Source of the DNA: Acidimicrobiales bacterium | Lineage (GTDB): Bacteria > Actinomycetota > Acidimicrobiia > Acidimicrobiales > SKKL01 | Direction of reading: 5' to 3' | Length of the DNA: 64,000 nt | Assembly (NCBI GenBank): GCA_034521975.1 | Contig: JAXHLR010000006.1 | Location: 124,001-188,000, forward strand | The notes under the pieces: model-generated | What the model was told of the DNA's origin: nothing | The model's database searches: none | Seen by the model: only the letters and a program-made list of their open reading frames with translations | Program-made: the position numbers and the translations under genes | Part shown: positions 22,304-46,775 of the stretch, one piece after another | Numbering within the stretch: the first letter of the stretch is position 1 | Layout of the letters: each line of letters starts with the position of its first letter

Positions 22304-22337
22304 CCCCCGACCAGCCTGCAACTCCAGGTCGGTCAGG
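22299..22337. terminator. Bidirectional terminator between serC and the RraA gene
   Basis: CCTGAC plus CGACC (22299-22312) pair with GGTCG plus GTCAGG (22327-22337), leaving a small bulge. The hairpin includes the stop codons of both convergent genes. T runs are weak on both sides. Confidence 0.45.
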
Positions 22338-23019
22338 AATCAAACCCCTCGAGTTCGCGGAGTGAGGCGACGGTCTGGCGCTTGTGCTCGTAGGCATCCA
22401 CCAGTGGCCTGCCGCCCCGGAGGTCATCGACCACAGCCGCTTCGGCCTCGGCATAGCGCCGAGCACGCGCAAGAACCTCGCCTTCGATGTCGGCATGAAG
22501 CGCCACGACCCCTCCGTCGTCCATGACCACGAGATCGCCACCATCGATGTGCACGTCGCCCACCTGTACCGCGTCGCCGACACCCACCACCTCGACCGAC
22601 CGGCCTGGACCAACGGTTCCCTGGGCTCGGGCCCAGGTGGGCAAAGCGAGTTCGTGGAGCGCTGCCACGTCGCGGGCAGTTCCATCGAGCACGACGCCAC
22701 GCACACCTGCGTTGCGCGCTGCAGCACCGAGGATCTCACCCCACACCGCCCCCGACATCGACGGCGCTCCACCGATCACCAGGATCCGGCCGCCGACGGA
22801 CTCTCGATTCAGGATGGAGAACAGCGGTCCGAGCCCGGCACCGTCCTCGACCATCGCCAGCTCCACGGTCACCACTCGAGCCGCCACAGGCTGGGGCGAC
22901 GTCACGATCGGCTCAAGCGGCGGCGAGATCCATCCGTTCGAACCGCCCATCAGCAACACGTCCGCGAGCGCGGTGGTCGGCGGCATGCCGACTCTGTTAG
23001 GTCCGGTCTCGCCAGTCAT
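22333..23019 (-). CDS. RraA-family aldolase/decarboxylase
   Basis: 228 residues of the RraA-like fold used by HMG/CHA aldolases, which cleave 4-hydroxy-2-oxo acids and decarboxylate oxaloacetate. Key segments: GGAPSMSGAVWGEILGAAAR, then GVRGVVLDGTARDVAAL with the Arg-Asp pair that binds substrate and metal. It lacks features that would mark it as the RNase E inhibitor. Last gene of the hyuA-hyuB-ligase-rraA run, overlapping the ligase by four bases (ATGA). It may release pyruvate or a similar acid at the end of the pathway; that is inference. Confidence 0.82.
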   Translation of the reverse strand: MTGETGPNRVGMPPTTALADVLLMGGSNGWISPPLEPIVTSPQPVAARVVTVELAMVEDGAGLGPLFSILNRESVGGRILVIGGAPSMSGAVWGEILGAAARNAGVRGVVLDGTARDVAALHELALPTWARAQGTVGPGRSVEVVGVGDAVQVGDVHIDGGDLVVMDDGGVVALHADIEGEVLARARRYAEAEAAVVDDLRGGRPLVDAYEHKRQTVASLRELEGFDS

Positions 23020-24626
23020 GGCTGTCCCTCTCCTTGGGCATCTCTCTCAGCCGGCCCGAGCAGGAACTTCCGGATCTTCCCCACCGAGGTGCGGGGCAGC
23101 TCGCGAACGACGTGCACGGCCCGCGGACGCTTCGACGGCGAAAGACGTTCGGTTGCCCAGGCCATGACCTCCTCGGGGTCGAAGTGCTCGACCTCGGGTC
23201 GGACAACGACATAGGCGACAGGAACCTCATCCCGCACAGGATCGGGCTCACCGACAACAGCGACCTCGAACACCGAAGGGTGGTCGGAGAGCACCTCCTC
23301 GACCTCGACGATCGAAACGTTCTCACCTGAGACCTTCAGGACGTCACCGGAGCGGCCCTCGAATCGGAACCAGCCCTCTTCATCGACCCGACCCCGGTCA
23401 CCTGTGCGGAACCAGACGACTCCGTCCGGCTCGTGAGAGATGATGGCCGCCTCGGTCGTGGCGGAATCGTCGAGATACTGCATGAACAGGGTCTCGCCCG
23501 GCACCCCGCCCACGACGAGGTCGCCGACCTCACCAGGCGCTGCCGGACGACCGGCGTCCGTGGTGAAGACCTCGACGGTACACCCCAGCGTGACCTGGCC
23601 CATGGCACTCGGTCGTTGCCCAACCGGTGGATTCGTCAGCACAGCCGGCAAGGTCTCGGTCATGCCATAAAGCTGACGGGGGTGACAGCCCACGAGCTCA
23701 GCGAAGGACTCGTACTGCTCATCGGTGAGGTTCTGGGCGAACCAGACATGTCGCAGAGCGAGCCCTTCGACCTCTCCTCCAGCGTCTCGGGCCAGGATCA
23801 TCCTCATCGGCGCGGCGAAGAGGCTGGCGTGGGTCGCCCCGAGCTGAGCCGCCTGTTCCCGAAAGCGGCTCGCGGAGAACGAACCGACCAGACCCACACT
23901 GGCACCGGCCGAGATCGCCGAGGCGAACGAGTAGTACTGGGCGTTCGCGTGGAAGAGCGGCAGCACAACCAGTTGACGGTCCCCCGGTCCGAGTCCGGCG
24001 GCCGCGGCCATGACGTCTCCCGCAAACGCGTAGTTGGCCTGGGTGAGCTCGACCCCCTTCGGTGCCGAGGTGGTACCCGAAGTGAACATGACCGCCAGTC
24101 GATCGGTCGGCAGGGGCGCAACTGTCGAGAGCGGGCCCGAGCCCCGGGCACTCGTCGATGACCCGTACATCCGGATCTGATCCAGTCGGGTGTCGGACTC
24201 GTCGATCGCCACCATCCCGCGCGCGGTGTCACTAGCGAGCGACGCCACCGCCTCTCGGTAGACCTCGGCCCGCTCGATGGCACAGAAGCCGACCGTCGGC
24301 TTGGTGCGGGCGATGTGGCCTGCTAGCTCGGTCGAGGACGCGTGGGGATCGGATGGGACCATCCATGCGCCGAGCCGGGCGGTGGCCAGCCAGATCGCCA
24401 CGAAGGCGGGTGAGCTGGCAAGGGTCAGGTGGACCGAGTCGCCGCGCCCGACTCCCTGTTCGTCGAGCCAGGTCGCTACCTCGCCCACCAACGAGTCGAA
24501 CTCCGAGTAGGTCCACTCGGTAACGACTCCGTCTTCGCCGAGCCAGAAGAGGAACGGCGCATCTGCCCGGGCCGCGACCGCCCGATCCCAACGGGCGGTG
24601 AAGGTCGGGAGGAACCGGCGACGCAT
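23016..24626 (-). CDS. AMP-dependent acyl-CoA synthetase/ligase
   Basis: 536 residues of the ANL superfamily, activating a carboxylic acid to acyl-AMP and then acyl-CoA. A3 motif FTSGTTSAPKGVELTQ, A5-like YGMTETLP, A7 WFRTGDRG, A8 RFEGRSGDVLKVSGENV and the C-terminal catalytic Lys in TSVGKIRKFLLG are all present, so it looks active. The closest layout is that of crotonobetaine/carnitine-CoA ligase-like enzymes, but the acid is unknown. It starts two bases after the hyuB stop. Confidence 0.88.
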   Translation of the reverse strand: MRRRFLPTFTARWDRAVAARADAPFLFWLGEDGVVTEWTYSEFDSLVGEVATWLDEQGVGRGDSVHLTLASSPAFVAIWLATARLGAWMVPSDPHASSTELAGHIARTKPTVGFCAIERAEVYREAVASLASDTARGMVAIDESDTRLDQIRMYGSSTSARGSGPLSTVAPLPTDRLAVMFTSGTTSAPKGVELTQANYAFAGDVMAAAAGLGPGDRQLVVLPLFHANAQYYSFASAISAGASVGLVGSFSASRFREQAAQLGATHASLFAAPMRMILARDAGGEVEGLALRHVWFAQNLTDEQYESFAELVGCHPRQLYGMTETLPAVLTNPPVGQRPSAMGQVTLGCTVEVFTTDAGRPAAPGEVGDLVVGGVPGETLFMQYLDDSATTEAAIISHEPDGVVWFRTGDRGRVDEEGWFRFEGRSGDVLKVSGENVSIVEVEEVLSDHPSVFEVAVVGEPDPVRDEVPVAYVVVRPEVEHFDPEEVMAWATERLSPSKRPRAVHVVRELPRTSVGKIRKFLLGPAERDAQGEGQP

Positions 24627-24628
24627 CG

Positions 24629-26196
24629 TCAGACGCGGGCGTCGTCGTCGTCGACGGATCCGTACCCTCCACCGCCGGGGAGATCGAGACGGACGACATC
24701 GCCGGGCTGGAGCGTCAGGCGCTGTTGGGTCACCACCGGTTCGCCGTTCACGGTGAACCGACCGGTCTCCCCCGCGTCGCCACCGAAGAGTCCCGCTGGG
24801 CCCTTCGCCAACCGGCTCGTCACCGCGTTCAGCTGCCATGGACGCTCCGTGTCGACGGTGAACTCGATCGTCTGGCCCAACCCACCCTTGGAGATCCCAC
24901 CACCACCCGACCCGGCGCGCAGCTCCTTGCGCAGGAACCGCAGCGGGGCAGAGGCCTCGACCACCTCGATCGGCACAGCGGAGACACCGGTCGGATAGGA
25001 CGTGGCGGAGAGCCCGGGCTTGTGAGATCGGGCACCGACCCCACCTGCGTAGGTGAACATGGCGGTGATGAAGGGGCTGCCGTCGTCGTGGTTGCCGCTC
25101 ACCTGCATGGTCCACACCGCACCTGCACCTTCGGCGATCACCGCCTCGGGGACCACCTGGGCCAACGCCTTGAGCAGTGGCATCGGCAGGAACATGCCGA
25201 CCACGTGGCGAGCGGTCCCCGGCATGGGCGTCACCGCGTTGACGATGCTGCCCTCAGGGGCTCGCATCCGGATAGGGGCCAGGCTCCCATGGTTGTTCGG
25301 GATGTCGGGGTTAAGCACGGACCGGATGGTGAAGGTCGTGTAAGCATGGGTGTAGTTGGGCGCGACGTTGATGCCCCACGGACTTGCACCCGAGGTGCCT
25401 TCGTAGTCGACGAAGATCTCACCGGCATCGGGATCGATCGTGATCGCCACCGCCACCGTGATCTCCGAACCATCAGCGAGGTCGAGGATCGAGGTCGCCT
25501 CATAGGTGCCGCCCGGAAGCGCACGCACCGCCCGCCGCGTGGCGTCCTCGGATCGATCGATGATCTCCTGGCCGAGCTCGGTGAGGTCGGCCAGCCCATG
25601 GGTGTCGCAGAGCGCGAGGAGCCGCTGGGCACCGACCTCACCGGACGCGACCTGCGCATGGAGGTCGCCTGCCATGTGATCGGGCTGACGGACGTTGGAG
25701 AGGATGAACTTCCAGACGTCGGCGTTGCGCTCTCCACCGATCATCAGCTTGGTGATGGGGATCCACAAGCCTTCTTCGAACACATCACGTCCACCCGCCC
25801 CGATGCCGTAGCCACCGACGTCGGTGTGATGGATCGTCGAGCCGAAGAAGGCGATGACCCGCTCGTCCCGGAACACCGGGCACAGCACCGTGACATCGAG
25901 CAACTGGCCCGCGGTCTTGTACGGGTCGTTGGTGATGAGCACGTCACCGGGTGAGAGGGTGGCCGCCGGGTACTCGGCGAGGATGGCGGGTGCCGAGGCG
26001 GCGAGGAGTTGATGTGGCCAGGGGTTCCCGTCACCGCCTGGGCGATCATCCTGCCATCCCGGTCGAACAGAGCATTGGCGAGGTCGCCCGCCTCGCGCAC
26101 GATCGGACTGAAGGCCGATCGTTGCAGGGCCTTGGCCTGCTCGTTGACCGTGGCGATGAGGCTGGCCCAGAGGACCTCGAGCTCGATGGCGTCCAT
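24629..26196 (-). CDS. hyuB: HyuB, hydantoinase/oxoprolinase beta subunit (apparent frameshift)
   Basis: Partner of HyuA in ATP-dependent hydantoinase, N-methylhydantoinase, caprolactamase or oxoprolinase-like enzymes. The N-terminus MDAIELEVLWASLIATVNEQ to GTPGHINS is in one frame; the remaining 460 residues (LAASAPAILAEYPAATL, then DVLITNDPY and GSTIHHTDVGG) are in another. The switch lies at about 26004-26009, where one extra C would join them into about 522 residues, the normal length. The ATG overlaps the hyuA stop (TGATG). Sequencing error or a real mutation cannot be told apart here. Confidence 0.85.
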
Positions 26197-28312
26197 CAAC
26201 GGGTACCTCCGGGGTCGCGGACGGCGACAAGCGCGCCGTCAGGGAGAACAGTGACGTCCCATCCGGGACGGATCACCGCCGTCGTCTCACGCTCTTCCAC
26301 TAGGGCTGGCCCGGCGAACCGGGCACCCGGGACGAGCTGGCTCCGACGGTAGACGAGGGTGTCGGCGCTCCCGGTGTCCCGTGCGAAGCGGGCCGGTCGG
26401 ACGTGATCCGGTCGGGGGGAGTCGGGCGGGTCAGCGGCGTGCACGATGGGCTCCACCTCGGCCTGCTGGCCTTCGATGGCTGCCAGTGCCGAGATCCGCC
26501 ACGTGACGATCTCCAGGCCAACTCCTGGAATGGCCAGACCGTAGATGCGCCGGTACTCGTCCTCGAACCGGGCGAGGAGCTCATCGTCGGTGACGGGCCA
26601 GGCGTCGGGGTCTGTGCCAGCCGGGAACCAGATGGTGATCTCGTTGCCCTGACCAACGTAACGGGCATCGACTCCGTAGCGGAACGCCACGTTCTGATCC
26701 GGGACACCGGCCGAGGTCGGAGCACGCGCCTGCCCTCGACGCGCAGCTCCTCTAGGAGCGAGTCGCGCTCGTCGTCGGGGATGCTACCGAGCCTGGCCAC
26801 CCGGGAGCGCGCCAGGTCGATCCGGACCGGCGACACCAGGGTGCCGAACGCTGACAGGACCGAGGCGTTGATGGGGAAGACGACCCGGGTGGCCTCGAGG
26901 AGCTCGGCCACCCCACAGGCGTGGACCGGTCCAGCTCCTCCGAACGCGATGAGTGGCACCCCCCGCAGATCGACGCCGTGCTCCACGGCGTGCATCCGAG
27001 CAGAGGCGGCCATGTTCTGGTTGACGAGCTCGTGGATGCCAGCGGCGGTCTCGTCGGTGCTGAGCCCGAGGGAGCTTGCGAGCTTGTCGATCGCTTGCTC
27101 AGCTGCGCTCCGGTCGAGGGGCATCTCACCGCCGAGGAACCAGTCAGCATCGAGGAGGCCGAGGATGAGATCCGCGTCGGTCACCGCGGCCTCGCCGCCG
27201 CCACGGCCATAGCAGGCGGGACCTGGATCCGCACCGGTGGAGTCGGGCCCGACCTTGAGGAGACCCAGGTCGTCCACTCGGGCGATGCTGCCGCCGCCGG
27301 CGCCGATCTCGACCAGGTCGACCGACGGGACCGATACAGGAAAGCCTGAACCCTTCTTGAACCGGTAGATCCGAGCGATCTCGAAAGTGTTGGCAAGATC
27401 GGGCTCGTGATCCTCGATCAAGCAGGACTTGGCCGTGGTCCCTCCCATGTCGAAGCAGAGGAGCCGGTCCTCGCCGAGGCGGCGTGAGTACCACGATCCA
27501 GCGAGGGCGCCAGCGGCTGGGCCGGACTCGACGAGGCGGATCGGTACACGCTTGGCGTCGGCAGCCGAGACCACGCCGCCGTTCGAGAGCATCATCAGGA
27601 CACCACCGCCGAACCCCTCGGCAGCGAGCCACTCCTCGAGCTCGTCGAGGTAGGGCCCGATGACCGGCATCGTGGCAGCATTGCAGGCACTGGTGATCAT
27701 GCGCGGGTACTCGCGGATCTGGGGCGACACCTCACTGGAGATGCAGATCGGGGCGTCGAGCGCGTCGACGAGATGGGCGACGACGAGTCGTTCGTTGGAT
27801 GGATTGGCGTAGGAGTTCAGTAGGCAGACCGCAACGGATTCGACCTCGTTGTCGACAAGCGAGGCCGCCAGCGCATCGAGAGCCGCCGACTCCGGGGCAT
27901 GACGGACCTCACCGGTCGCCATGGTGCGTTCGTCGAGCTCGAAGGTAAGCGATCTGGGGATCGGCGGCTCCGGGAACTCGATCTGGAGGTCGTACATGTC
28001 GTACCGGTGCTCATCCCGGATGAGCAGCGTGTCACCGAACCCGCTGGTGGTCACCAGCGCGGCCCGACCGATCTTTCCCTCGATGAGTGCGTTGGTGATC
28101 AGAGTCGTCGCGTGAACGATCGGTGCCCGTATCTCGGACGGGGCAACGCCCGCCTTGGTCAGCAGCTGGGCGATGCCGGCACGAACGCCGTCGAGCGGTG
28201 CAGCGGGAGTGGTAAGGGCCTTGTCCACCACCACGTTGCCGGAATTGGCATCGAGCAGCACGACATCGGTGAACGTGCCGCCGATGTCCACCGCGAGTCG
28301 CCAGTCAGCCAT
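26196..28312 (-). CDS. hyuA: HyuA, hydantoinase/oxoprolinase alpha subunit (apparent frameshift)
   Basis: ATP-binding subunit of a hydantoinase/acetone carboxylase/oxoprolinase-type enzyme. The N-terminal DIGGTFTDVVLLDA phosphate loop, the CFDMGGTTAKSCLIEDHE segment and VEIGAGGGSIARVD are clear. About 525 residues are in frame from 28312; the last 160 (NVAFRYGVDARYVGQGNEITIWFPAG onward) are in another frame, with the break near 26716-26722, where one missing base would restore about 705 residues. It overlaps the cupin gene by eight bases. It likely opens an amide ring at the cost of ATP. Confidence 0.87.
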
Positions 28313-28703
28313 GAGCCACCTCTTCCTCGGGTGCACCGACTCGGCGTGGCGCGAAGACGTCGATGATCCAGCACTCGTCATACTCGTCGTCGCCGATAAA
28401 GACCGAATCGCCGTGCCAGACTCCGGGCCGGGCGAAGTAGAGGTCACCCGGGCGCAGGACCGTGCGCTCGGTCGGCTCGTCACCTTCACCGATCCGAAAG
28501 TCGAGCCCCCCGCGCACGATGAGTCCGAACTGCTCGTGGTTGGGGTGCTGGTGCAGGTAGGAGCCGGTTGCTCCTCCCGCGATCCTCCAGAACCAGATCG
28601 TCATTCCCTCAGCATCGATCACACGGCGACGAAAACCTGGTCGCCCGGTGTCATCGAAGCTTCCCTCGTCGACGAACCACACGTCTTGATTGCCCTGGCC
28701 CAA
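28305..28703 (-). CDS. Cupin-domain protein
   Basis: 132 residues with a single cupin barrel: motif 1 HQHPNHEQFGLIVRGGLDFRI (metal-type His, His, Glu) and motif 2 PGDLYFARPGVWHGD. The start is TTG at 28703 with GAGGAGG about 10 bases upstream. It could be a small dioxygenase, isomerase or sensor; nothing fixes the substrate. It lies between VOC1 and hyuA on the same strand. Confidence 0.82.
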   Translation of the reverse strand: MGQGNQDVWFVDEGSFDDTGRPGFRRRVIDAEGMTIWFWRIAGGATGSYLHQHPNHEQFGLIVRGGLDFRIGEGDEPTERTVLRPGDLYFARPGVWHGDSVFIGDDEYDECWIIDVFAPRRVGAPEEEVAHG

Positions 28704-28778
28704 TGTTCGGAATCCTCCTCAGTGATCGCTGGCCGCAGCACCGGCACCAGAGCCGCGCCGTGGTGGACGGACCGGAGA

Positions 28779-28819
28779 CCGGCGTGGGTGCGCGCCTGCG
28801 CGGCACGCACCCACGCCGG
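28779..28819 (-). repeat. Strong intercistronic hairpin between VOC1 and the cupin gene
   Basis: CCGGCGTGGGTGCG (28779-28792) and its exact reverse complement (28806-28819) form a 14-bp stem with a 13-base loop. No T run follows on the minus strand, so partial termination or mRNA stabilisation is more likely than full termination. Confidence 0.55.
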
Positions 28820-28830
28820 GTCCGGGGAGA

Positions 28831-29203
28831 TCAGGCGTCGACGTGCGCCTCTGGGTTCGCACCCCACTCGATGATCTGCAGGTAGTTGCCGTCGGGGTCG
28901 GCCACGGTGCCGATGAGTCCGAAGGGCATCTGCTCCACCGGACGGATCCATCGGACCCCAAGGTCCTTCAGGTGCGCTTCCAGGCCTCGGCAGTCGTCCA
29001 CGTGGAAGTTGATGACGTAGCGAGCGGCGTCGGTTGCGGGCCCGGACACCTCCGAGTGCTCCTCGATGAAGTACTGGACGGGCCCGTACTCGAAGGCACC
29101 ACCCTCGTTCTCCTCGACCCCGAACCGCGCGCCGATACCAAGTCTTCATCTCATCGACGTTGCTCGACCCGATGAGCAAGCTCCCGATCGGTGGTGCAGT
29201 CAT
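28831..29203 (-). CDS. VOC (glyoxalase/dioxygenase) protein 1 (apparent frameshift)
   Basis: Small vicinal-oxygen-chelate domain protein. The N-terminus MTAPPIGSLLIGSSNVDEMK TWY is in one frame, and RFGVEENEGGAFEYGPVQYF through VINFHVDDCRGLEAHLK to DPDGNYLQIIEWGANP is in another. The break is in a CGCGCG stretch at about 29124-29136. Restored, it would be about 124 residues. AAGGAGAC precedes the ATG. First gene downstream of the strong promoter at 29327-29355. Confidence 0.75.
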
Positions 29204-29490: not shown

Positions 29491-30212
29491 ATGTCATCGC
29501 CGAACAGTCGGTTTTCCCCGATCGCGAGGACGACCGTCGCATCTGCGGTTCGCGACGCGATCGAGGAGAGCATCCGTTCAGGGGCGATGCCCCCCGGCAG
29601 CCCACTTCCGTCCGAGCGGGAGCTCTCCGAGCAGTTCGACGTCGCGCGCGCACCTCGGTCCGCGAGGCTGTCCAGGGTCTGCTCACGTTGGGCCTGATCG
29701 AAAAGCGCGGCAACCGCTCCTATGTGATCGAGCATCTGCCCTCCTTCAGGCTCGACGGCGACGACCGCCGCAAGCTCCGGGTACGCGAACTGTTCGCGGT
29801 CAGGGAGATCCTCGAGCCGCCGATCGTGCGCCTCGCCGTGCAGAAGGCCAGCGAGGACGAACGCCAACGTATCGCTGACATCGCCCGACAGTTCCAGGCC
29901 GGAATGCCCCTCGAGGAGTTCCGCCACCTCGACCGTCAGTTCCATTGGGCTTTGGCCACAGCATGCGGCAATGAGACCCTCGCCGAGCTCTCGGGAAAGG
30001 TTCTCGACAGCCTCTTCGCCTCAGACGAGTTCCACGAGCTGCTCGGCTCTCGCGACAACGATGCGGCAGTTGCCGACGTCATCGACACCTCGGTGCGGGC
30101 GCATCACCGAATCGCCGAAGCAATAGAGAGCGCCGACGCGTCGAGGGCCGTGGAGGAGATCACCGCCCATCTCCACGACGTGGAGGACCAGATGGTCTCC
30201 CGCATGTCCTGA
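29491..30212 (+). CDS. GntR/FadR-family regulator of the island (apparent frameshift)
   Basis: Winged-helix N-terminus (SAVRDAIEESIRSGAMPPGS, then LPSERELSEQFDVAR) followed by TSVREAVQGLLTLGLIEKRG in a second frame and an FCD ligand-binding domain (LREILEPPIVRLAV-type helix, RQFHWALATACGNETL and AHHRIAEAIESADASRA with the metal-binding Asp/His set). The switch is in a CG repeat at 29641-29652; removing two bases or adding one restores about 240 residues. GGGAAGGGAA precedes the ATG. As sequenced, the DNA-binding domain is cut off from the sensor domain. Likely local repressor. Confidence 0.82.
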
Positions 30213-30286: not shown

Positions 30287-30793
30287 TCAGCCCTCGAGGA
30301 CCTCGAGTCGCCAGGTCACCTCCTGAGAGCCAAAGCGGCGCACGTCCCCGTCGAGGTCGAGCGGTCGCACGATCGCTTCGTTCTCCTCATCGCCCCATTC
30401 AGTGGGAGGGACCAGCCACATGACCTCGAACTCGTTGCCGTCAGGATCGCGCGAGTAGAGACTCTTGTTCACGCCATGGTCACTCGCACCGATGAGCGCG
30501 CCGGCCTCGGCGAGACGCCGCTCAGCCGCCTTCAGATCCGCGAGGGTCGGGACCTCCCATGCGATGTGGTATAGCCCGACGGTGCGGCCACCCGAAGGCG
30601 GTCCCGCTTGCTCGCCAACGCTGAACAAGGCGAGGTCGTGGTGGTTCTCCGACTCGCCCGCCCGAAGGAACGCGAACCGGTCCATCGGATCGGAGATGAC
30701 CAGCGAGAACCCCATCACCTCCTGGTAGAACTCGGCAATTCGGCGGGCGCTGCGGACATAGAGCACCGCATGGTTCAGTCGTGTGATCCTCAT
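30287..30793 (-). CDS. VOC (glyoxalase/extradiol dioxygenase-like) protein 2
   Basis: About 168 residues with one or two VOC modules: ITRLNHAVLYVRSARRIAEFYQ at the start, HHDLALFSV, GLYHIAWEVPTLADL and DPDGNEFEVMWL carry the His and Glu residues that bind metal in this family. I chose the ATG at 30793 (MRITRLNHAV); 30811 would add six residues. It lies downstream of bmpA on the same strand, separated by a hairpin. It may cleave or isomerise a pathway intermediate. Confidence 0.82.
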   Translation of the reverse strand: MRITRLNHAVLYVRSARRIAEFYQEVMGFSLVISDPMDRFAFLRAGESENHHDLALFSVGEQAGPPSGGRTVGLYHIAWEVPTLADLKAAERRLAEAGALIGASDHGVNKSLYSRDPDGNEFEVMWLVPPTEWGDEENEAIVRPLDLDGDVRRFGSQEVTWRLEVLEG

Positions 30794-30831
30794 GGCTTCT
30801 TCGCTCTTCATGGTCGATGGTCGTCATGGGG

Positions 30832-32182: not shown

Positions 32183-32194
32183 GGAATACGAGGA

Positions 32195-36004: not shown

Positions 36005-36101
36005 GGTCTTCGCCTCGTGATCCCTGTGCTTGCATGGCCCTGCATCAGACCTCCCACTAGCCAGACGGCTGGACCCCCGGCATTTTATAACCGATCTTCA
36101 G

Positions 36102-36114
36102 ACAGTCAGACCAT
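36102..36114. promoter_or_regulatory. Predicted GntR operator site 3 in the coxM-EamA divergent promoter
   Basis: ACAGTCAGACCAT keeps the GTCAGACC core of sites 1 and 2. On the minus strand it overlaps the -35 position of a promoter whose -10 is TATAAA (36083-36088 region) for coxM; on the plus strand it abuts TAGGAT, a -10 candidate for the EamA gene. Confidence 0.55.
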
Positions 36115-36130
36115 AGGATGTCCTGCTGAT

Positions 36131-38231: not shown

Positions 38232-38780
38232 TCAGAGCTGACCCCGGGTCTCGAAGGTCAGCGGCGAGACATACCGGGTCTTCAACCATCCGTGCTCGAA
38301 CGGTGTGACGAAGGTGTCCCGATACCGAATGTGCTTGATGAACCAACTGCCGTCGAGGCACGCGAAGTCGTTCTCGTACCAGGCACCCATCCAGACCTGG
38401 GCGCGACCGTCCCGGAGGGTCGCCGCCTCCAGCACCTGCCACTGACCCCATCCGGTCATGAGGTCCTGGGCTACACCGATCGACGCGTTGGCGAGATAGT
38501 GCGCCGTGAAGGGAAGCATCGACGGGTTGTCGAGGAACATCTCATAGATCCCGGCACGGCCCTCGGTAACGCCGAACTCAGCGAAGTTGCCCTGGCCCTC
38601 CCACTTCGCATCCTCGGTGAACATCGAAGCGATCAGCTCCGCCGACTTCACCACGTCACACGCATGGATGTATCGATACATCAGCTTCTCGATGCGGTCG
38701 ACAGCATCGTGATGCTCGACCCGCTCCCGCAGCCGCGCAACCTCGGTCCGCAGTCGCTCGATCTCACTTCTCTCGGTCAT
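38232..38780 (-). CDS. SnoaL/NTF2-like protein
   Basis: 182 residues. An N-terminal coiled-coil helix (SEIERLRTEVARLRERVEHH) leads into an NTF2-like cone fold: AVDRIEKLMYRYIHACDVV, MFTEDAKWEGQGNFAEFGVTEG, TAHYLANASIGV, WYENDFACLDGSWFIKHIRY. SnoaL-like proteins include isomerases and dehydratases, and the beta subunit of ring-hydroxylating dioxygenases has the same fold, so a subunit role beside the two Rieske alpha proteins is possible. GGAAGGA precedes the ATG. Confidence 0.82.
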   Translation of the reverse strand: MTERSEIERLRTEVARLRERVEHHDAVDRIEKLMYRYIHACDVVKSAELIASMFTEDAKWEGQGNFAEFGVTEGRAGIYEMFLDNPSMLPFTAHYLANASIGVAQDLMTGWGQWQVLEAATLRDGRAQVWMGAWYENDFACLDGSWFIKHIRYRDTFVTPFEHGWLKTRYVSPLTFETRGQL

Positions 38781-38801
38781 CTCGATTCCTTCCTCTCGTA
38801 T

Positions 38802-38944: not shown

Positions 38945-40126
38945 TCACGACGTGGCCAGGCCGACCTCGTTGGCGTAGGACCGATAGCGCTGGACCAGCC
39001 AGCGGTTGAGCTGCACGATGGTCGTCTCCTTCCAGGAGAACGGTCCACGCGGAGCGAACTGGGACCGAAGGCCCTTCTGGACCAGCGTGTCGGCCTTGAC
39101 GTCCTGCTCGTTGTACATCATCACCCCGTCCACGATCCATCGGATGATGTGGTCGAAGTTGTCGACCTTCACGGACTCCGGAGGCACACAGAGGCCGATG
39201 CGCAACGAGATCTCATTTGCCCCCTTGGGCAGGATCACGAAGTAGAACATGTGATCCGGCACGAGCCCGATCGGGGTCATCGGCGGGACCATCGCGAACA
39301 TCACCCGGTTTCGCTGTTCCTCGGTGAGCGTCTCGATCGGTGGCAAAAGCGCCCGGTGGACTGGATTGAACGCGGCGTCCTTCCGGTCGAAGCCGGTCGG
39401 ATGCATGATCACGTTCTCGTCAGGGGTGTGCTCACAGAAGCCATGACCCAGGGCGAAGTCATGGATGCCCTTGTGCAGGTACGCGTTGTGATATGGCTCC
39501 ATGAAGTTCTCGAGCATGATCTTCCAGTTCCAGGGGTAGCTGTCGACCTCGATGGGCGGAAGGCTCACCATGTCGGCGACCCCGTAGTTCTCCATCTCCT
39601 GCTCGAGCGCGACCAGCGTGGGAGCCAGTGGCGATGCATCCTGCTGGTAGTGGCAGAAGATGAACCCCTGCCAGAGTTCCACCTTCAGCGATGGCAGGGT
39701 GCAGGCCGACTTGTCCCATTCGGTCTTGTTCATCTCGGGTGTGTGCACCACCGCGCCTTGAAGGTCGTAGGACCAGAAGTGCAGTGGGCAGCGCATCAGG
39801 CCGCGTTCGATGCTCCCGCTTCCCTCCATGAGGAGATGCCCGCGGTGCCGGCACACGTTGGACATCACCCGGATATCTCCGTCGTCGTTCAGCACGACGA
39901 GTGGGTCATCGTTGATATCGATCGTGAAGTAGTCCCCCGAGTTGGCGACCTGGTCGGCGCGCCCGACGCAGAGCCAGTTCCGTTCGAAGATGGCCTTCTT
40001 CTCGAACTCGAACCACTCCTCGGAGGTGTAGATGTGGGGCGGGAAGAACTTGGCGGTCGCCACATCTCCGGTCGACCGTTCGAGGTCCTGGAGTACGTCG
40101 TCGTTGATGAGATGGGAGAAGCTCAT
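38945..40126 (-). CDS. Rieske oxygenase alpha subunit 2
   Basis: 393 residues. Rieske ligands Cys92, His94, Cys113, His116 (CRHRG and CPLHFW); iron ligands His213 and His218 in NFMEPYHNAYLHKG. The bridging position is Glu210 rather than Asp, as described for carnitine monooxygenase CntA and related amine oxygenases. The C-terminal FAPRGPFSWKETTIVQLNRW matches its two paralogues. It lies downstream of the ABC permease genes, with a 59-base gap. Confidence 0.9.
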   Translation of the reverse strand: MSFSHLINDDVLQDLERSTGDVATAKFFPPHIYTSEEWFEFEKKAIFERNWLCVGRADQVANSGDYFTIDINDDPLVVLNDDGDIRVMSNVCRHRGHLLMEGSGSIERGLMRCPLHFWSYDLQGAVVHTPEMNKTEWDKSACTLPSLKVELWQGFIFCHYQQDASPLAPTLVALEQEMENYGVADMVSLPPIEVDSYPWNWKIMLENFMEPYHNAYLHKGIHDFALGHGFCEHTPDENVIMHPTGFDRKDAAFNPVHRALLPPIETLTEEQRNRVMFAMVPPMTPIGLVPDHMFYFVILPKGANEISLRIGLCVPPESVKVDNFDHIIRWIVDGVMMYNEQDVKADTLVQKGLRSQFAPRGPFSWKETTIVQLNRWLVQRYRSYANEVGLATS

Positions 40127-40185
40127 TCTGGTGGGTGTTCCTTTCTGGTGATCAGTCGTTCGTGCTTCGGGGGCTGATGGATGCT

Positions 40186-41094
40186 TCACACCGCTCTGCG
40201 TTCGAACCCGATGCCGAGCATTCGTGGTTGACGCTGACGCTGGCGGAAGATGTACAAGGCGAGGAGTGCCATGATGTACGGAGAGGCGATGAGCAGCTGC
40301 GGGTTGAGCTCGATGCCCAGGGCCGGCAACGCGAGCCGAAGTGCGTCCATGAACCCGAACACGAAGCAGCCGAGCAGGGCCCCCTTGATGCTCCACGCCC
40401 CGAAGATCACAGCGGCGATGGCGATGAACCCTCGGCCCGCTGTCATGTTCGGGCTGAAACCGCCGATGGCCCCGATCGAGAGGAAGGCCCCACCGAAACC
40501 GGCGTAGAGGCCACCGATGATGATCGCCTGCCGCCGCCGGAGGTTCACGGAGATGCCGGTGGCATCCGCCGCCTGCGGGTTCTCGCCCACTGCTTGGGCC
40601 TCGAGACCCCACCGGGTCCGATGGATCAGGAACCAGGCGAGCGGTACGAGCAGGTAGATGGCGAAGAACGGGGCTCGTTGCTCGAACAGCACCTCGCCGA
40701 GAACAGGGATCTGGGCCAAGGGCGGGATCGACCAGACTGGGAACCGCTCTGGATTGAAGCTCATTGACACGAAGAGGAACGTCGTGAGACCCAGAGCGAG
40801 GATGTTCAGCGTCAGGCCCACCACGAACTGGTTCACCGTGAGCGCGTGGGACAGGTAGGCCTGCACCAGGGCCACAACCCCGCCGATCGCGATTCCTGCG
40901 AGGAGCCCGATCATGGCAGATCCCGAGACCGAGGAGCCGACCACCGCGCCGAAGGCCCCGGCAAGCATCCCCCCTTCGACCGAGATGTTGAGGGTCCCTG
41001 CTTTCTCGGCGACGAGCTCGCCCATCGCCACGAAGGCCAGCGGCACAGCCAAGCGCGTTGCGCTGTCCAGTAGGAGTGTGATGTCGCCGACCAC
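40186..41094 (-). CDS. ABC importer permease (NupQ/YufQ type)
   Basis: 302 residues with about eight to ten membrane helices; it contains AVPLAFVAMGELVAEKAGTLNISVEGGM, the family hallmark, and AVGENPQAADATGI, the coupling-helix region. It belongs to the RbsC-like permeases that pair with BMP-type binding proteins in nucleoside uptake. It starts at GTG 41094, directly next to the stop of the other permease gene. Confidence 0.92.
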   Translation of the reverse strand: MVGDITLLLDSATRLAVPLAFVAMGELVAEKAGTLNISVEGGMLAGAFGAVVGSSVSGSAMIGLLAGIAIGGVVALVQAYLSHALTVNQFVVGLTLNILALGLTTFLFVSMSFNPERFPVWSIPPLAQIPVLGEVLFEQRAPFFAIYLLVPLAWFLIHRTRWGLEAQAVGENPQAADATGISVNLRRRQAIIIGGLYAGFGGAFLSIGAIGGFSPNMTAGRGFIAIAAVIFGAWSIKGALLGCFVFGFMDALRLALPALGIELNPQLLIASPYIMALLALYIFRQRQRQPRMLGIGFERRAV

Positions 41095-42270
41095 CTACGC
41101 ACCTGCCTTCGCTACGTTGGCTCCGGCTTCCGCTTCGATCTGTTCGACCATGAGGCGCGCCTGACGACGGCGCTTGCGCCGACGCACGTACAGGGAGGGG
41201 AGCATGATCGCCAGGACGATCAGGGACTGGACCACTCCGACGATCGCCGAGTTCACCCCGGTCGCGGCAAGCACACCACCTCCCGCACGCAACGCGCCGA
41301 ACAGGAACGCGACGAAGATGGCAAAGATCGGGCTGAACCCAGCCACGAGCGCCACGAGCAGTCCTTCCCATCCGTAGTTGTTCGACAGCCCTGGGTTCAC
41401 CCGGAACGCCACCCCAGAGAGGATCACCCCACCAGCAAGGCCAGCGAATGCTCCTGACATGAGCAGGGCACCGCTACCGAAGGCGAGGTCGGACACTCCC
41501 GCCCGCTTCGCGGTACGCTTGTTGAGGCCGAACATCCTGAGCCGGAACCCCCACGTGGTCCGAGCGATCGCGAACCCGGCCGCGAGCGCCAGCCCCAGCG
41601 CGAGGAAGATCCCCACATGGAGCCGGTATCCCGAACCGGAGATGAGCACGGGAAGGCGCGCTGTCGCACTGACCGGATCGCTCTGTGGCGCCGCAGGCTG
41701 GATCGATCCCTCAGGGACGGTCTCCTGGAGCAACCACGAGCGGTTCACCAGGTACGAGACCAGAGCGAAGGCGATGAAGTTGAGCAGGAGCGTCGTGATG
41801 ACCTCGCTCACGCGTGCCTGGTGGCGGAGAATCGCAGCGATGCCGGCCCAACAGGCTCCCCCAAGTGCCGCAGCGAGGAGCACGGCGGGAAGAACCAACA
41901 CGATCGGGCCGGGCACGGTCAGGCCGACGACCACTGCCAACGTCGCTCCGATGACGAACTGCCCCTCCTGACCGATGTTGACAAAACCTGCTCGACCGGC
42001 GATCGCCGCACCGATCGCCACGATGAGGAGCGGGCCGGTGTGGTTGAGGGTGGTCACAAAGGATGACAACGACCCGAGACTGCCCTGGAGCATCGAGCTG
42101 AAGGCAGAGCCGGGCGGGTTCCCCGCGATCCAGAGCAGCGTGGCGGCGAGAGCGAGCGCCGAGAAGACGGCGATGGCGGCGAGACCGGCGAACCAGGCGA
42201 GGTCGGCCGCAGCAGCGGGCGTCAGCCGGCCCCGCATCCGGTAGAGGACGTCCCTGGGCGAGGTGGTCAC
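41095..42270 (-). CDS. ABC importer permease (NupP/YufP type)
   Basis: 391 residues with about ten helices; contains GRAGFVNIGQEGQFVIGA, the EVITTLLLNFIAF segment and LNKRTAKRAGVSD as the coupling region. Second membrane subunit of the BMP-linked importer. It overlaps the ATPase gene by four bases. Confidence 0.92.
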   Translation of the reverse strand: MTTSPRDVLYRMRGRLTPAAAADLAWFAGLAAIAVFSALALAATLLWIAGNPPGSAFSSMLQGSLGSLSSFVTTLNHTGPLLIVAIGAAIAGRAGFVNIGQEGQFVIGATLAVVVGLTVPGPIVLVLPAVLLAAALGGACWAGIAAILRHQARVSEVITTLLLNFIAFALVSYLVNRSWLLQETVPEGSIQPAAPQSDPVSATARLPVLISGSGYRLHVGIFLALGLALAAGFAIARTTWGFRLRMFGLNKRTAKRAGVSDLAFGSGALLMSGAFAGLAGGVILSGVAFRVNPGLSNNYGWEGLLVALVAGFSPIFAIFVAFLFGALRAGGGVLAATGVNSAIVGVVQSLIVLAIMLPSLYVRRRKRRRQARLMVEQIEAEAGANVAKAGA

Positions 42271-43856
42271 TCCGTCTCACCACCCATCAGGAGGCCGAGC
42301 CGTCCGAGGTCGACGTCTGCACGGAGCATCTCGCCCACGACTGCCCCTCGGAAAATCACCGCCACTCGGTCTGCCAAGGCGAGGATCTCGTCGAGTTCGG
42401 TCGACACCAACAGGATGCCGGCCCCCTCGCTCGCCGCGAGTCTGAGGCGGTGCCACAAATACTCCATGGCCCCGACATCGAGTCCCCGTGTCGGCTGCTC
42501 GGCGATGATGAAATCTGGTCTTCGCGACAGCTCCCGGGCGAGCACAACCTTCTGCTGGTTGCCACCGGAGAGAGTCCACATGGGAGCGTGTACATCGCTG
42601 CACATGACGTCGAACTCCTCGACCAACATCCTGGCGTTGGCGTCGATCGCTTCTCGATCGATCACGCTGCTGCGTGTCACCGAATCCAGGTGGTTGAGCA
42701 CCAGGTTCTCGGCGATCGACATGTCGAGCACGCAACCCGAGTCGTGGCGTTCGGCAGGGACTACTCCGAGCGCAGAGAGATCCGCTGGCACGCCTTCACC
42801 ACAGTCGGCTCCGGCGATCGACACCGACCCCGTTCCGCCCGGGATTAGCCCGCTCAACACCTCGACCAGGACGCTCTGACCATTGCCCTCGACACCCGCA
42901 AGCCCGACGATCTCACCCCGTCGCACCGACAGTGAGAACTCGTCGAGCAAACGGTGGCCGTCATCGCTGTGCACGGTCAGCGAGTCGATCTCCAATGAGC
43001 GATCAATCTCGGCCTGGCGCTCGATGTCCGCGTCAAAGGCCTCGTCGACGTCACCGAGGCCGAGAGCCGCACCTTCACGATCGAGCGCGACGTCCCGCCC
43101 AAGCATGAAGCTCGCCAGTGACGGGGCATCGGTCTCCACCGTCGGCATGGATGCCACGACGGCACCCGACCGCAACACCGTGACCCGATCGGTTGCAGCG
43201 AGGATCTCCGAGAGCCGGTGGCTGATCAGTACTGCGGCGTAGCCGTGATCGTCGACCATTGACCGCAACACGGTGAAGAGCCGCACCGACTCTGCCTGGG
43301 TCAGGACCGAAGTGGGCTCATCGAGGATGATCACCTTCGGATCGCTGCGGAGGCACTTGATGATCTCGACCCGCTGACGCATCCCAGCCGACAAGTCCTC
43401 CACCCGTGCCATGGGGTCGACCTCGATGCCGAAGCGCTCCCCAATCGACTCGACGAGACCGATTGCCCGTCTGGGACTGAACCGTTCGGCGTCACCAAGC
43501 AATACGTTCTGCCACACTGTGAGCGAGCTCACTAGGCTGAAGTGCTGGTGGACCATCCCCACCCCGGAGCGGGCCGCCACGGCAGGATCACCTGGTGCCA
43601 GGGCGGTCCCGTCAACCACGACCCGGCCGCGGTCAGCCGTCTCTACGCCGACCACCACCTTCATCAGCGTCGATTTCCCTGCTCCGTTCTGCCCGAGCAG
43701 GCCCATGACCTCGCCTGGACGGACCTCAAAGGAGATGTCGTCGCACGCGACCAGAGGCCCGAACAGCTTCGTCACCCGGTCGATAGCCAGGAGGGGGTGC
43801 TCGCTCTCAGCGTGACCATGGCCGGCAGTCGGCATCGTCGTCCCGTCGACGGTCAT
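42267..43856 (-). CDS. ABC importer ATPase with two nucleotide-binding domains
   Basis: 529 residues, the RbsA/NupO layout. Domain 1 has Walker A GQNGAGKST, signature LSAGMRQRVEI and Walker B VIILDEPTSVL; domain 2 has a degenerate Walker A (GVEGNGQS), signature LSGGNQQKVVLARE and FIIAEQPTRGLD. Degeneration of one site is normal for this family. ATGA overlap with the DUF1989 gene upstream. Confidence 0.94.
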   Translation of the reverse strand: MTVDGTTMPTAGHGHAESEHPLLAIDRVTKLFGPLVACDDISFEVRPGEVMGLLGQNGAGKSTLMKVVVGVETADRGRVVVDGTALAPGDPAVAARSGVGMVHQHFSLVSSLTVWQNVLLGDAERFSPRRAIGLVESIGERFGIEVDPMARVEDLSAGMRQRVEIIKCLRSDPKVIILDEPTSVLTQAESVRLFTVLRSMVDDHGYAAVLISHRLSEILAATDRVTVLRSGAVVASMPTVETDAPSLASFMLGRDVALDREGAALGLGDVDEAFDADIERQAEIDRSLEIDSLTVHSDDGHRLLDEFSLSVRRGEIVGLAGVEGNGQSVLVEVLSGLIPGGTGSVSIAGADCGEGVPADLSALGVVPAERHDSGCVLDMSIAENLVLNHLDSVTRSSVIDREAIDANARMLVEEFDVMCSDVHAPMWTLSGGNQQKVVLARELSRRPDFIIAEQPTRGLDVGAMEYLWHRLRLAASEGAGILLVSTELDEILALADRVAVIFRGAVVGEMLRADVDLGRLGLLMGGETE

Positions 43857-44481
43857 TCGACCCTCTCCATCTCGAGGCTGGTCGGACCGCTGCCGCTGAT
43901 CTGGATGACGTCCATCGGGCAGGCCGAGACGACTACATAAGCGTCCAGCTCGGCCCGTAGCTCCACTCGGTCGCCGGGCTTCGAGGTGGCTTCGCGGTAG
44001 TCGATCGTGCCATCGGCCATCGGCGGGGTGTTCATGAAGAGGTTGACCGGGTTGAGGGGCTGACGTCGGGGGTGAACCCCAAAGCCACGGCGCACTCGCG
44101 GAGGTTCTCTTCGCAGCTGTCGTGGTGACCTTCGACTCCGAGCTGCCGGTAGCGCTCTGGGTCACACGCGGCGATGAGCAGATCGTGGATCCCCGGAGAC
44201 GTGTCGGACACCAGGGTGAGGATCGGGCGGCGCCGGTTCGTGAAGAAGGCCTCACCGATCGCCGGAAACAAGCGACGCAACGCAGACCGGGTGTGGGAGG
44301 CACTGAGATGTTCGGTGGGGTCCTCGGCGACGAACGCGAAGAGGTCCCCCACCTGTGCCCCGTGGACGTCGCGCACAGCGAGGGTCTCGCCACGGCGCAC
44401 CAACACGCCTCGTCCCTTGCGGGCAGGTACTTCCACGCGCGGACCCCATTCGAGAGACTGCCCGGAATCGGGTGCGGTCAC
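43853..44481 (-). CDS. DUF1989 / urea carboxylase-associated protein (apparent frameshift)
   Basis: N-terminal part from GTG 44481: RVEVPARKGRGVLVRRGETLAV, SASHTRSALRRLFPAIGEAF, HDSCEENLRECAVALGF. The C-terminal part, RRQPLNPVNLFMNTPPM to GDRVELRAELDAYVVVSACPMDV, is in another frame; adding one C to the CCCCC run at 44068-44072 joins them into about 209 residues. DUF1989 proteins travel with urea carboxylase and other nitrogen-release systems; their activity is not settled. AAGGAGG lies 8 bases before the GTG, and the GTGA overlaps the asparaginase stop. Confidence 0.83.
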
Positions 44482-45521
44482 GTCGTCGCCTCCTTCTTCG
44501 CCTCGATGATCGGCGGATCGGTGTCTCGGGTTCCTGAACCGAGCGCGATGCGAGGGTCGTGGCCTGCCGCGAGGAGCAGGCGCAGCAGTGTCACCACCTT
44601 GGTGACGGGCAAGGTCGGAGCGGGGATCAGGCCCGCAGCAAGCAAGTCCCGCTCCGATCCCTCGAACCCATAGGTACGTCGAAGTGGCGGGCCAGCGCCG
44701 GTACGCGTCGTGTAGACCACCGGTATCTCGCCGGCCAGCCAGGCGAGGGGCGATACCCAGCTCGGTGGCACGTGGCCACCTCCCAGGGCCGCAACGACGA
44801 CACCGTCGACCGATCCGTCGACGAGCACCGACACCGTCGACGGATCGGCTCCGGGCAGCGAGGACACGAGCACCACGTGGGAGGGATGCAGCGTGCTCGG
44901 GTCGGGCCGGATCGGGCCCAGGCGCACACGCGGCGACAGCACCAGCTCGGGCGAACCCTCGACCACCCATCCGAGCGCTCCAGGGACAGACTCGAAGGCG
45001 GCCGGAGACGCGGAGTGGCCCTTGGTGACCAGTGCCCCAGCGTGGATCTCCGAGGACAGGACGGCGGTGACGCCGATGCCGCGGCACGTGTCGGACCGGG
45101 CGACGGTGACCGCGTCGGCCAAGTTGGCGAGCCCGTCAGCGCCCGGCTGATCCCCAACCCTCATCGATCCGGTGACCACCACCGGCATCTCGTCGTCGTG
45201 CATGAGGTCGAGCGCGAAGGCGAGCTCCTCGATGGCGTCGGTGCCCTGGGTCAGCACCACGCCACGCCGGCCAGCAGCGGCCTCGGCGGAGATGGTGGCG
45301 GCCAGCTCCACCCACTCTTCGACCCCGAGCGCACCGCTCGAGGTCTGGTGGACCTGGGACGTCGTGACCGGGCCAAGTCCCGCTGCCGCAGCCAGGTCGG
45401 CGACGCCCTCCACGGGAACAGCTCCCTGTCCCTGGTCCTGCATCGCGATCGTGCCACCCAGGCCCATGATGAGGATCTCGTCGTCGTCGATCGGTCGCCC
45501 CGTCTCCCCCACGCGTCCCAC
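44478..45521 (-). CDS. Asparaginase-family amidohydrolase
   Basis: 347 residues of the type I/II asparaginase/glutaminase fold. The two catalytic threonine motifs are ILIMGLGGTIAM near residue 20 and VVLTQGTDAIEELAFALDL near residue 90; VVVTGSMRVGDQPGADG follows as in the family. It has no signal peptide. In this operon it may release ammonia from an open-chain amide made by the pathway rather than asparagine; that is inference. Start is GTG 45521, right after the Rieske 3 stop. Confidence 0.88.
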   Translation of the reverse strand: MGRVGETGRPIDDDEILIMGLGGTIAMQDQGQGAVPVEGVADLAAAAGLGPVTTSQVHQTSSGALGVEEWVELAATISAEAAAGRRGVVLTQGTDAIEELAFALDLMHDDEMPVVVTGSMRVGDQPGADGLANLADAVTVARSDTCRGIGVTAVLSSEIHAGALVTKGHSASPAAFESVPGALGWVVEGSPELVLSPRVRLGPIRPDPSTLHPSHVVLVSSLPGADPSTVSVLVDGSVDGVVVAALGGGHVPPSWVSPLAWLAGEIPVVYTTRTGAGPPLRRTYGFEGSERDLLAAGLIPAPTLPVTKVVTLLRLLLAAGHDPRIALGSGTRDTDPPIIEAKKEATT

Positions 45522-46775
45522 CTACCGTCGGACAGAGACCGGTGCGCCATTCACCGAATCCGCAGCGCGGTATCGCTCGATCAGCCAGGTGTTGAAATCG
45601 GCCAGCACCGACTCCTGCCAGGAGTAGCGACCACGTGGGGCAAAGCGGGACTCCATGCCTCGCTGGACGGCGGTGTTCGCGGGGAGGTCCTGGTTGTTGA
45701 AGAACTCGACCCCGCTTACCTGCATCTCGAGCGTCTGCCTGAACAGCGGTAGCTCGACGGTGCTCTTCGGGAAGATGTAGGCCATCGAGAGCGTGTGGGT
45801 GCCGGGTCCAGTCGGCAGCACGGTGAACCAGAACGCCGAGTCGCACTGGATCCCCATCATCAGCCCGGGCGGCACGTAGACGAACTGGACGCTGTTGCGC
45901 TCGACCTCAGTCAGAGTCTCGATCGTGGGGAACAGCGCCTTCTGGATCGGGTTGAAGCCACCCTCGGCAACCTCGGTCGGATGGTGCCCGTACATGTAGG
46001 CCTGACCCGGCTCGAAGAGGGCGTAGTTGATCGTCGAGCTCGGGGCGAAATCGTGGATGATGGCGTGGAGACGGTCGGGGTGATACCCCTCCATGAAGTT
46101 CTCGACCATCACCTTCCAGTTGAACGGCAGATCCTCGATGAGCTCGGGATCAACGGTGACCATCTCGTCGATGTGCCAGTTCTGGAGGAAGGCATCGAGG
46201 GGGCCGAGCCGAGGAGCGAGAGGCTCGGCATCACCGCTGAGGTTGATGAAGATGAAGCCCTGCCATACTTCCACTCGAAGTTCAGGTAGGCGGATTGTGG
46301 ACTTGTCGAAGCCGTTCGTCCTGTTCATCTCCGGTGCGCCGAGCAGACGGCCATCGAGGTCGTAGATCCACCAGTGGTAGGGACACTTGAAGGTCCGGGT
46401 GTTCCCGCTCGTCTCGGGAGGAAGCTCCAGCCACTCCTCCTTCGGACGTTCCCCCGGGGCGGTGACACACATTGCCCGATGCTGGCACACCGAGGACAGG
46501 ACCTTGACCTCGCCCTCGGAGCTGCGGACCACGATGAGTGACTCGCCCAGCACAGTGATGGTGAAGAAGTCGCCGGTGTTCACCACCTGATCGCTTCGCC
46601 CCACACAGATCCACTCCCGCTCGAACACCGCCTGCATCTCGAAGTCGAAGAAGGCCGAATCGGTGTACACGCTCGGTGGCATCCCCACCGCGTCAGCAAA
46701 GCTCCCAGCAGAGCGATCGAACTCCTCGAGGGGGATCGGGCTGGCAAGCCCCGACGCGTTGGGTCCAGTTGTCAT
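45522..46775 (-). CDS. Rieske oxygenase alpha subunit 3
   Basis: 417 residues. Rieske ligands Cys97, His99, Cys131, His134, with a spacer of 31 residues that is 13 longer than in Rieske 2, because of an inserted ERPKEEWLELPPETSGN loop. Iron ligands His232 and His237 in NFMEGYHPDRLHA, bridging Glu229. The C-terminal FAPRGRYSWQESVLADFNTW matches its paralogues. First gene of the operon running through the amidase, DUF1989, ABC importer and Rieske 2 to Rieske 1. GGAGGG precedes the ATG. Confidence 0.9.
   Translation of the reverse strand: MTTGPNASGLASPIPLEEFDRSAGSFADAVGMPPSVYTDSAFFDFEMQAVFEREWICVGRSDQVVNTGDFFTITVLGESLIVVRSSEGEVKVLSSVCQHRAMCVTAPGERPKEEWLELPPETSGNTRTFKCPYHWWIYDLDGRLLGAPEMNRTNGFDKSTIRLPELRVEVWQGFIFINLSGDAEPLAPRLGPLDAFLQNWHIDEMVTVDPELIEDLPFNWKVMVENFMEGYHPDRLHAIIHDFAPSSTINYALFEPGQAYMYGHHPTEVAEGGFNPIQKALFPTIETLTEVERNSVQFVYVPPGLMMGIQCDSAFWFTVLPTGPGTHTLSMAYIFPKSTVELPLFRQTLEMQVSGVEFFNNQDLPANTAVQRGMESRFAPRGRYSWQESVLADFNTWLIERYRAADSVNGAPVSVRR

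Follow-up and report, generated by a model that had tools for sequence, protein, structure and literature searches.

What a run of 22 genes between serC and metY does for an Acidimicrobiales bacterium, and on which compound it acts, is the question raised by the 64,000-nucleotide stretch of contig JAXHLR010000006.1 (GenBank assembly GCA_034521975.1, positions 124,001 to 188,000) analysed here. This whole stretch, which we call the window and to which the coordinates below refer, belongs to contig C6 of the host genome, which measures 3.3 Mb in 10 contigs. We consider it probable, with a good deal of doubt left, that these genes form a horizontally acquired island which takes up a planar nitrogen heterocycle and breaks it down oxidatively with the help of ATP; the substrate class is possibly a nucleobase-, nucleoside-, pterin-, flavin- or pyridine-like ring, perhaps N-alkylated. 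Profile scans agreed with the original prediction, which had placed 22 genes of these catabolic families between serC and metY, and our own count was also 22, with 20 genes on the minus strand (the strand of each island gene below unless a plus is given; start codons are approximate) and two, for a GntR/FCD regulator and an EamA-type transporter, on the plus strand. Beyond the families listed in that prediction, we add this regulator and this transporter, the status of the block as an insertion, and frameshifts in six genes.

The island spans positions 22308-46986 (about 24.7 kb, no strand assigned), as delimited by the ends of homology, the flank gaps in relatives and GC content. serC (21170-22303, plus strand) and metY (46693-48300, minus strand) are neighbours in all three close genomes examined, one of the same genus (G089) and two of the same family (G044 and G122), and because the gap between them, counted by gene ends, is just 815, 998 and 131 bp, respectively, the block is an insertion. 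Homology between these relatives and the window ends, at the DNA level, at positions 22304-22307 on one side and 46987-46991 on the other, and none of the three has a match to the island oxygenases RieA and RieB at the thresholds used, or the HyuA of the conserved core described below. GC content is 0.656 in the island against 0.682-0.708 across 19 sampled genome stretches. All three PF00848 matches of the host genome, as well as its sole DUF1989 gene, fall inside the island, and molybdenum (Mo) hydroxylase large subunits are also present elsewhere in the genome. At the right boundary the metY frame extends about 97 codons into the island, and this read-through stretch (46693-46986) overlaps the start of RieA. 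No integrase family was found among the island proteins scanned, no tRNA at the island ends (both window tRNAs lie at 2146-2412), and no direct repeat of at least 9 bases between 22241-22420 and 46901-47080.

The uptake system gives the first indication of a substrate class. It comprises a BMP substrate-binding protein (30922-32001, PF02608), one ATPase with two PF00005 stretches (42267-43859), and two permeases of the BPD_transp_2 family (PF02653), perm1 (41095-42270) and perm2 (40186-41094), which is the complete set for an ABC importer of the BMP/PnrA type. A structure model of the binding protein (mean pLDDT 81.9) was used in fold searches and matched PnrA, RfuA (riboflavin), Lbp (guanosine), BmpD (adenosine), AtzT and other BMP-type chains with Z scores of 26-32, the next row being at 20.3. 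By this model the protein has a nucleoside/riboflavin-binder fold, in line with the nucleoside-like ring importer that had been predicted; the fold by itself does not tell which ligand is bound. The importers of PnrA (nucleosides), RfuA, Lbp and AtzT have the same fold and subunit set as the island's, whereas the island protein is just 15-22% identical to these binders in fold alignments. The vitamin B6 ABC transporter was rejected as an identity for the importer, since its four models (NCBIfam NF047927-NF047930) gave 28.9, 171.7, 130.2 and 379.2 bits against cut-offs of 400, 465, 400 and 670.

A Mo hydroxylase follows, with a large subunit, MoL (32203-34632; PF01315, PF02738, PF20256; frameshift near 32440), a [2Fe-2S] small subunit, MoS (34629-35129; PF01799, PF00111), and a FAD subunit, M (35126-36004; PF00941, PF03450). 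The nearest solved chain to MoL is quinoline 2-oxidoreductase (1t3q, 466 bits), in line with the proposal of an enzyme acting on N-heterocycles. The L/S/M organisation is common to the quinoline 2-oxidoreductase/CO dehydrogenase family and the island enzyme, but the island large subunit is frameshifted. Another large subunit of the host genome (G000:C3:460815-461599, locus L183) is likewise split over two frames.

The three Rieske oxygenases open the question of a different substrate. RieA (45522-46775, ENFMEGYHPDRLH) and RieB (38945-40120, ENFMEPYHNAYLH), both recognised by a family profile match and the motif, carry the bridging Glu that is described for carnitine monooxygenase CntA in the available parts of PMC7948474 and PMC10952381, and CntA is the best solved relative in phmmer for all three proteins (RieA 107, RieB 126 and RieC 117 bits); together with GbcA and Stc2 it makes up their best solved and NCBIfam relatives. 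The island could thus act on amines that are quaternary or carry N-methyl groups, for instance the betaines trigonelline, homarine and stachydrine, with RieA and RieB as N-demethylases and the rest of the genes handling the ring. The CoA ligase, nearest to crotonobetaine/carnitine-CoA ligase, would suit such a role, and in five genomes (G182, G098, G056, G130 and G228, with the domains confirmed in the first and the last) formate-dehydrogenase-like genes are found close to RieC orthologues, as would fit formaldehyde release. We nevertheless judge this unlikely, given that RieC (36991-38160; PF00355, PF00848) has a bridging Asp (ENFNDPYHASRLH), that four RieA relatives at 49% identity (L068, L070, L079 and L082) have Asp too, and that the importer is of the BMP type. 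Asp was found in all 81 RieC-type places read. The Cys-X-X-Cys pair, placed at the mononuclear iron of some Group V (quaternary amine) Rieske monooxygenases in the accessible part of PMC10952381, is absent from the motifs of RieA, RieB and RieC, which distinguishes them from CntA and Stc2, and their scores lie far under the GbcA cut-off. With its Asp in place of the Glu of carnitine monooxygenase, RieC also counts against the interpretation given in the original prediction, which is partly supported overall.

Several observations concern the surroundings of Rieske genes in other genomes. At L013-L014, L017, L018 and L021, the RieC orthologues near formate-dehydrogenase-like genes are also accompanied by a sensor set, which in G182 consists of STAS, a SpoIIE-type regulator, a periplasmic binding protein and a TorS-like kinase. 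In the same genome, two Rieske genes flank one for a creatinase/prolidase-type (M24) protein. The Kozakia baliensis plasmid pKB16680_1 (L189, typed mobilizable) encodes a member of the Rieske family with 46% identity to RieC, together with acetamidase/formamidase, LLM flavin oxidoreductase, isochorismatase-family and VOC genes.

Returning to the breakdown of a nitrogen heterocycle, the island encodes a HyuA/HyuB pair of the same protein family as caprolactamase CapAB and N-methylhydantoinase. HyuA (26196-28312; PF05378, PF01968 and PF19278 over two frames; frameshift near 26720) has these two enzymes as its nearest solved chains (6yra and 7hk5) and keeps the ATP-site motifs DIGGTFTD, DMGGT and GADPGP, a set reported for the A subunit of a cyclic-amide hydrolase in the available text of PMC8453981; HyuB (24629-26196, frameshift near 26009) matches PF02538. 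Unlike CapAB, the island pair has genes for a Rieske protein, a cupin, a VOC protein, a ligase and a BMP importer in its cluster.

The proposed removal of nitrogen and use of the carbon remnant would fall to an asparaginase-like amidohydrolase (44478-45512; PF00710, PF17763), a DUF1989 protein (43867-44481; PF09347 over two frames; frameshift near 44060), an AMP-dependent acyl-CoA ligase (23016-24626; PF00501, PF13193; the best NCBIfam model, crotonobetaine/carnitine-CoA ligase, being under its cut-off) and an RraA-like aldolase/decarboxylase (22333-23019; PF03737, 78.7 bits). A cupin (28305-28703, PF07883) and a SnoaL/NTF2-like protein that may be an oxygenase beta subunit (38232-38780, PF13577) are also present. 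Two VOC proteins had been predicted; VOC1, a single-domain VOC/extradiol-type protein (30287-30811), is matched by PF00903 at 59.3 bits, while VOC2 (28831-29203, frameshift near 29136) is the weakest call, its larger piece scoring 20.5 bits for PF00903 and so falling just short of the 20.6 cut-off. The two plus-strand genes encode the GntR/FCD regulator (29491-30212; frameshift near 29650, with PF00392 in the first piece and PF07729 in the second) and the EamA-type transporter (36178-37024; PF00892, scanned on 35879-37024).

The gene families, the insertion, the residue patterns and the recurrent clustering described below are observed directly, the fold of the binding protein is taken from a model, and from these we infer the substrate, the chemical steps and their order. 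The BMP protein and the ABC importer would bring the ring into the cell, where RieA and RieB might oxidise a C-N or N-methyl position and the Mo hydroxylase would add a carbonyl next to a ring nitrogen. RieC with the SnoaL/NTF2 protein, and VOC1, could then oxidise or open the ring, and HyuAB would use ATP to open or carboxylate the resulting cyclic amide. The asparaginase and DUF1989 proteins may strip amide or amidine nitrogen, the ligase would activate the carbon remnant with CoA, and RraA would cleave the activated remnant into small acids, under putative control by the GntR/FCD protein.

Much of this set recurs in other genomes. Named genome contigs searched with an alignment of six HyuA sequences (A1) yielded 189 relatives, of which the best 80 loci were analysed. 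Most of these come from genomes of uncultured actinobacteria, often under the label Acidimicrobiia or Ilumatobacter, and they include the isolates Sphaerimonospora, Embleya, Streptomyces albipurpureus and Thermocatellispora; one Acidobacteria and two Bifidobacterium breve labels are perhaps mistaken. A core of VOC1, GntR, cupin, HyuA, HyuB, CoA ligase, Rieske protein, BMP importer and, less regularly, RraA recurs in Acidimicrobiia-type genomes. Counted at any position and on either strand, the 80 loci gave matches to HyuA (80), HyuB (79), cupin (74), ligase (66), VOC1 (64), RieC-type proteins (57, five of them just 27-31% identical), GntR (46), BMP (40), ABC ATPase (36), perm1 (35) and perm2 (34), and more rarely to RraA (14), MoL (7), MoS (7) and RieA (5); VOC2 was found at none of the 80. 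Within 4 kb upstream of core HyuA, the 67 loci with enough sequence had cupin in 62, VOC1 in 54 and GntR in 39, and within 11.6 kb downstream (46 loci) we found HyuB in 46, ligase in 41, Rieske in 32, BMP in 31, ABC ATPase in 30, perm1 and perm2 in 29 each, and RraA in 12. Cupin, HyuB, Rieske, BMP, ABC ATPase and perm1 were co-stranded in 26 of the 42 loci with both flanks available. As a control, 20 of 40 listed sites of other HyuA paralogues, from five genomes, were analysed, and none of the 20 had a cupin, VOC1, GntR, BMP, Rieske or ligase match; an ABC ATPase was present in 12 and permeases in 2. Intact HyuAB pairs exist among the relatives, for example at L023 and L025. The four isolates, among them Streptomyces albipurpureus, Thermocatellispora tengchongensis and Sphaerimonospora mesophila, carry HyuAB, ligase and RraA along with a Rieske protein that is no more than 28-36% identical, with no cupin or VOC1 match at the HyuAB locus. 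Plasmid searches found no copy of the module, with best identities below 60% for RieA and RieC; HyuA reached 66-67% in two Embleya records, and Bosea had HyuAB with a cupin and an AMP-binding protein.

DUF1989 matches lie on the same strand at core loci L052, L055, L059, L063, L071 and L082. In an Acidimicrobiaceae metagenome-assembled genome, L051:1107-3647 encodes a trimethylamine N-oxide demethylase (1191.5 bits against an NCBIfam cut-off of 1100), with an ammonium transporter nearby (L051:4583-6055).

Whether the remainder of the island belongs with this core bears on a further explanation, in which two or more unrelated catabolic pieces became adjacent by chance. The HyuAB core and RieC do lie on different contigs or far apart in G182, G056, G130 and G157, and the asparaginase is in no other copy seen (80 core loci and 14 RieA loci). 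Nevertheless, RieA, found in 17 of 397 genomes of the order under seven family labels, goes together with core HyuA, found in 57 of 397, in 16 of 17 genomes, compared with 41 of 380 genomes without RieA (Fisher p 7e-14, or 4e-13 minus the host genome, both ignoring shared ancestry). These counts come from two draws of 397 genomes taken as identical, with G182 scored as lacking core HyuA, although it has a contig-end piece at 67%. Moreover, two loci (L166 and L167) have importer, RieA, MoS, MoL, ligase and HyuAB side by side. We therefore regard a chance assembly of unrelated pieces as quite improbable. Among the RieA neighbourhoods studied (14 of the 15 beyond the host genome and G182, with G077 excluded; several cut by contig ends), perm1 was matched in 13, perm2 in 12, ABC ATPase in 11, BMP in 10, MoS and MoL in 6 each, RieC in 5, ligase in 4 and HyuAB in 2. 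The MoLSM subunits, RieA, the importer, RieC, the NTF2 protein and RieB are grouped in G228 (L155) and G182 (L013/L014), two genomes of another family; no asparaginase or DUF1989 match was found in these two modules. RieB is about 67-69% identical in both genomes. A direct search of 198 genomes of the order returned G182 alone at this level, and a phylum sample of 396 genomes gave two matches at 44% besides the host genome. The co-occurrence elsewhere on which the original prediction staked itself was thus found for most genes, at core loci, at RieA loci and in G228 and G182, and failed for the asparaginase and largely for DUF1989.

The genes added at some relatives' loci give an indirect hint that the ring is rich in nitrogen and may bear a sugar. 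They include a urease alpha subunit, a UreG-type GTPase and FmdA/AmdA-family proteins, with urease alpha relatives adjoining the core or RieA in L036, L039, L066 and L160 (Pfam check in L036 and L160). Also among them are COG0402-type amidohydrolases, nearest to 5'-deoxyadenosine, TRZ/ATZ and 8-oxoguanine deaminase models and below their cut-offs, as well as a luciferase-like monooxygenase, a flavin reductase, a VanA/KshA-type Rieske protein, an FGGY kinase and DeoC/LacD-type aldolases.

Searches of the full texts in one open-access library, a scope that leaves most subscription papers outside, found no paper with the island gene set, in agreement with the earlier statement that no described pathway has this exact combination. 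The nearest described system is the lum operon of Nocardioides simplex (lumichrome/riboflavin; PMC12746152), which, according to the accessible portion of that paper, also combines a Mo hydroxylase, a Rieske oxygenase, an extradiol-type dioxygenase and a retro-aldol end for an N-heteroaromatic. Compared by gene families, it differs in its P450 LumU and its thiamin enzyme LumK/L, neither family being among the island proteins scanned, and the word hydantoinase is missing from that paper; on the basis of this different gene set we rejected lumichrome breakdown as the identity of the island. The indole-3-acetate (iad) pathway was dropped as well, since none of the open-access texts listed joined hydantoinase with iad and Rieske, and so was a creatinine route, in which, on general knowledge, the ligase and aldolase would be superfluous. 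Judged by its genes, the island appears to be a variant of known catabolic types without a matching described pathway.

Several results weigh against the breakdown of a nitrogen heterocycle by this island. No island gene fixes the substrate, and the Rieske, ligase, HyuAB and importer scores are all under the NCBIfam cut-offs. The urease, formamidase-family and deaminase-type genes of the relatives lie outside the window. At the six RieA loci with Mo subunits, two are close (56-63% identity) and the other four only 31-44% identical. The asparaginase was found at none of the 80 core loci and none of the 14 RieA loci, and DUF1989 at 7 and none of them, respectively, with the one that was classified being a trimethylamine N-oxide demethylase. 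No FNR-type (PF00970) reductase for the Rieske enzymes was found in the host genome. As sequenced, six of the 22 genes (HyuB, HyuA, VOC2, GntR, MoL and DUF1989) are split between two frames. Finally, core HyuB has Gln at the position of CapB His99 in all 95 alignments of at least 60% identity (84 distinct sequences once repeats are removed, such as L019 and L069, which are one contig).

The split frames, together with the missing reductase, raise the suspicion that the island came in with the core, has since decayed to a remnant and no longer functions in this strain. In MoL the conserved GAGEAG segment, which bears the catalytic Glu in this family, lies in another frame, and with HyuA and HyuB also frameshifted as sequenced, the functional set of the original prediction stands only in part. 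A strict frameshift scan, which recovers three of the six frameshifts that other means show, made three calls in the island (24.4 kb) and none in 39.6 kb of flank, about four times the background rate (P for at least three, 0.046). The same scan made 12 calls in a 370-kb genome sample, and errors of assembly where coverage is poor would therefore explain the frameshifts equally; moreover, the frames of RieA, RieB, RieC, the importer, the ligase and RraA are open throughout. Decay and poor local assembly are both possible readings of the frameshifts, and that the island is a functionless remnant seems to us unlikely. The strict scan also made four calls in the last 30 kb of host contig C3.

The substitution in HyuB has a more specific bearing. 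In the available text of PMC8453981, less than 0.015% conversion was left in CapB H99A, and of the metal tetrad tested in the B subunit (CapB Asp41-His99-Asp102-His124), core HyuB keeps Asp41, Asp102 and His124 (D-Q-D-H) and so does not match the full set; the window HyuB also has Gln at position 99. His stands at this position in 32 of 34 alignments below 45% identity and in Bosea (57.5%). This Gln puts the ATP-driven opening of a cyclic amide by HyuAB on less sure ground than had been assumed; the ATP motifs retained by HyuA are in its favour. Position 124 in turn varies in most of the 34 alignments below 45% and is Gln in the solved N-methylhydantoinase, which indicates that the metal site tolerates change and that, in these alignments, the family as a whole does not adhere strictly to the tetrad.

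A bolder possibility is that the conserved core constitutes a new, widespread Acidimicrobiales pathway for a nucleoside- or nucleobase-like N-heterocycle, built around a HyuAB subfamily in which the exchange of His for Gln has adapted the metal site of HyuB to a new reaction, driven by ATP, that opens or carboxylates the ring. We put this forward tentatively and hold it to be the less likely case, the more so because position 124 of HyuB varies in paralogues too. The Gln itself can serve as a sequence marker for the subfamily, and the set supplies testable proteins in the binding protein, HyuAB and the three Rieske enzymes. If such a pathway exists, many mostly uncultured Acidimicrobiales would draw carbon and nitrogen from a common source that has yet to be assigned.

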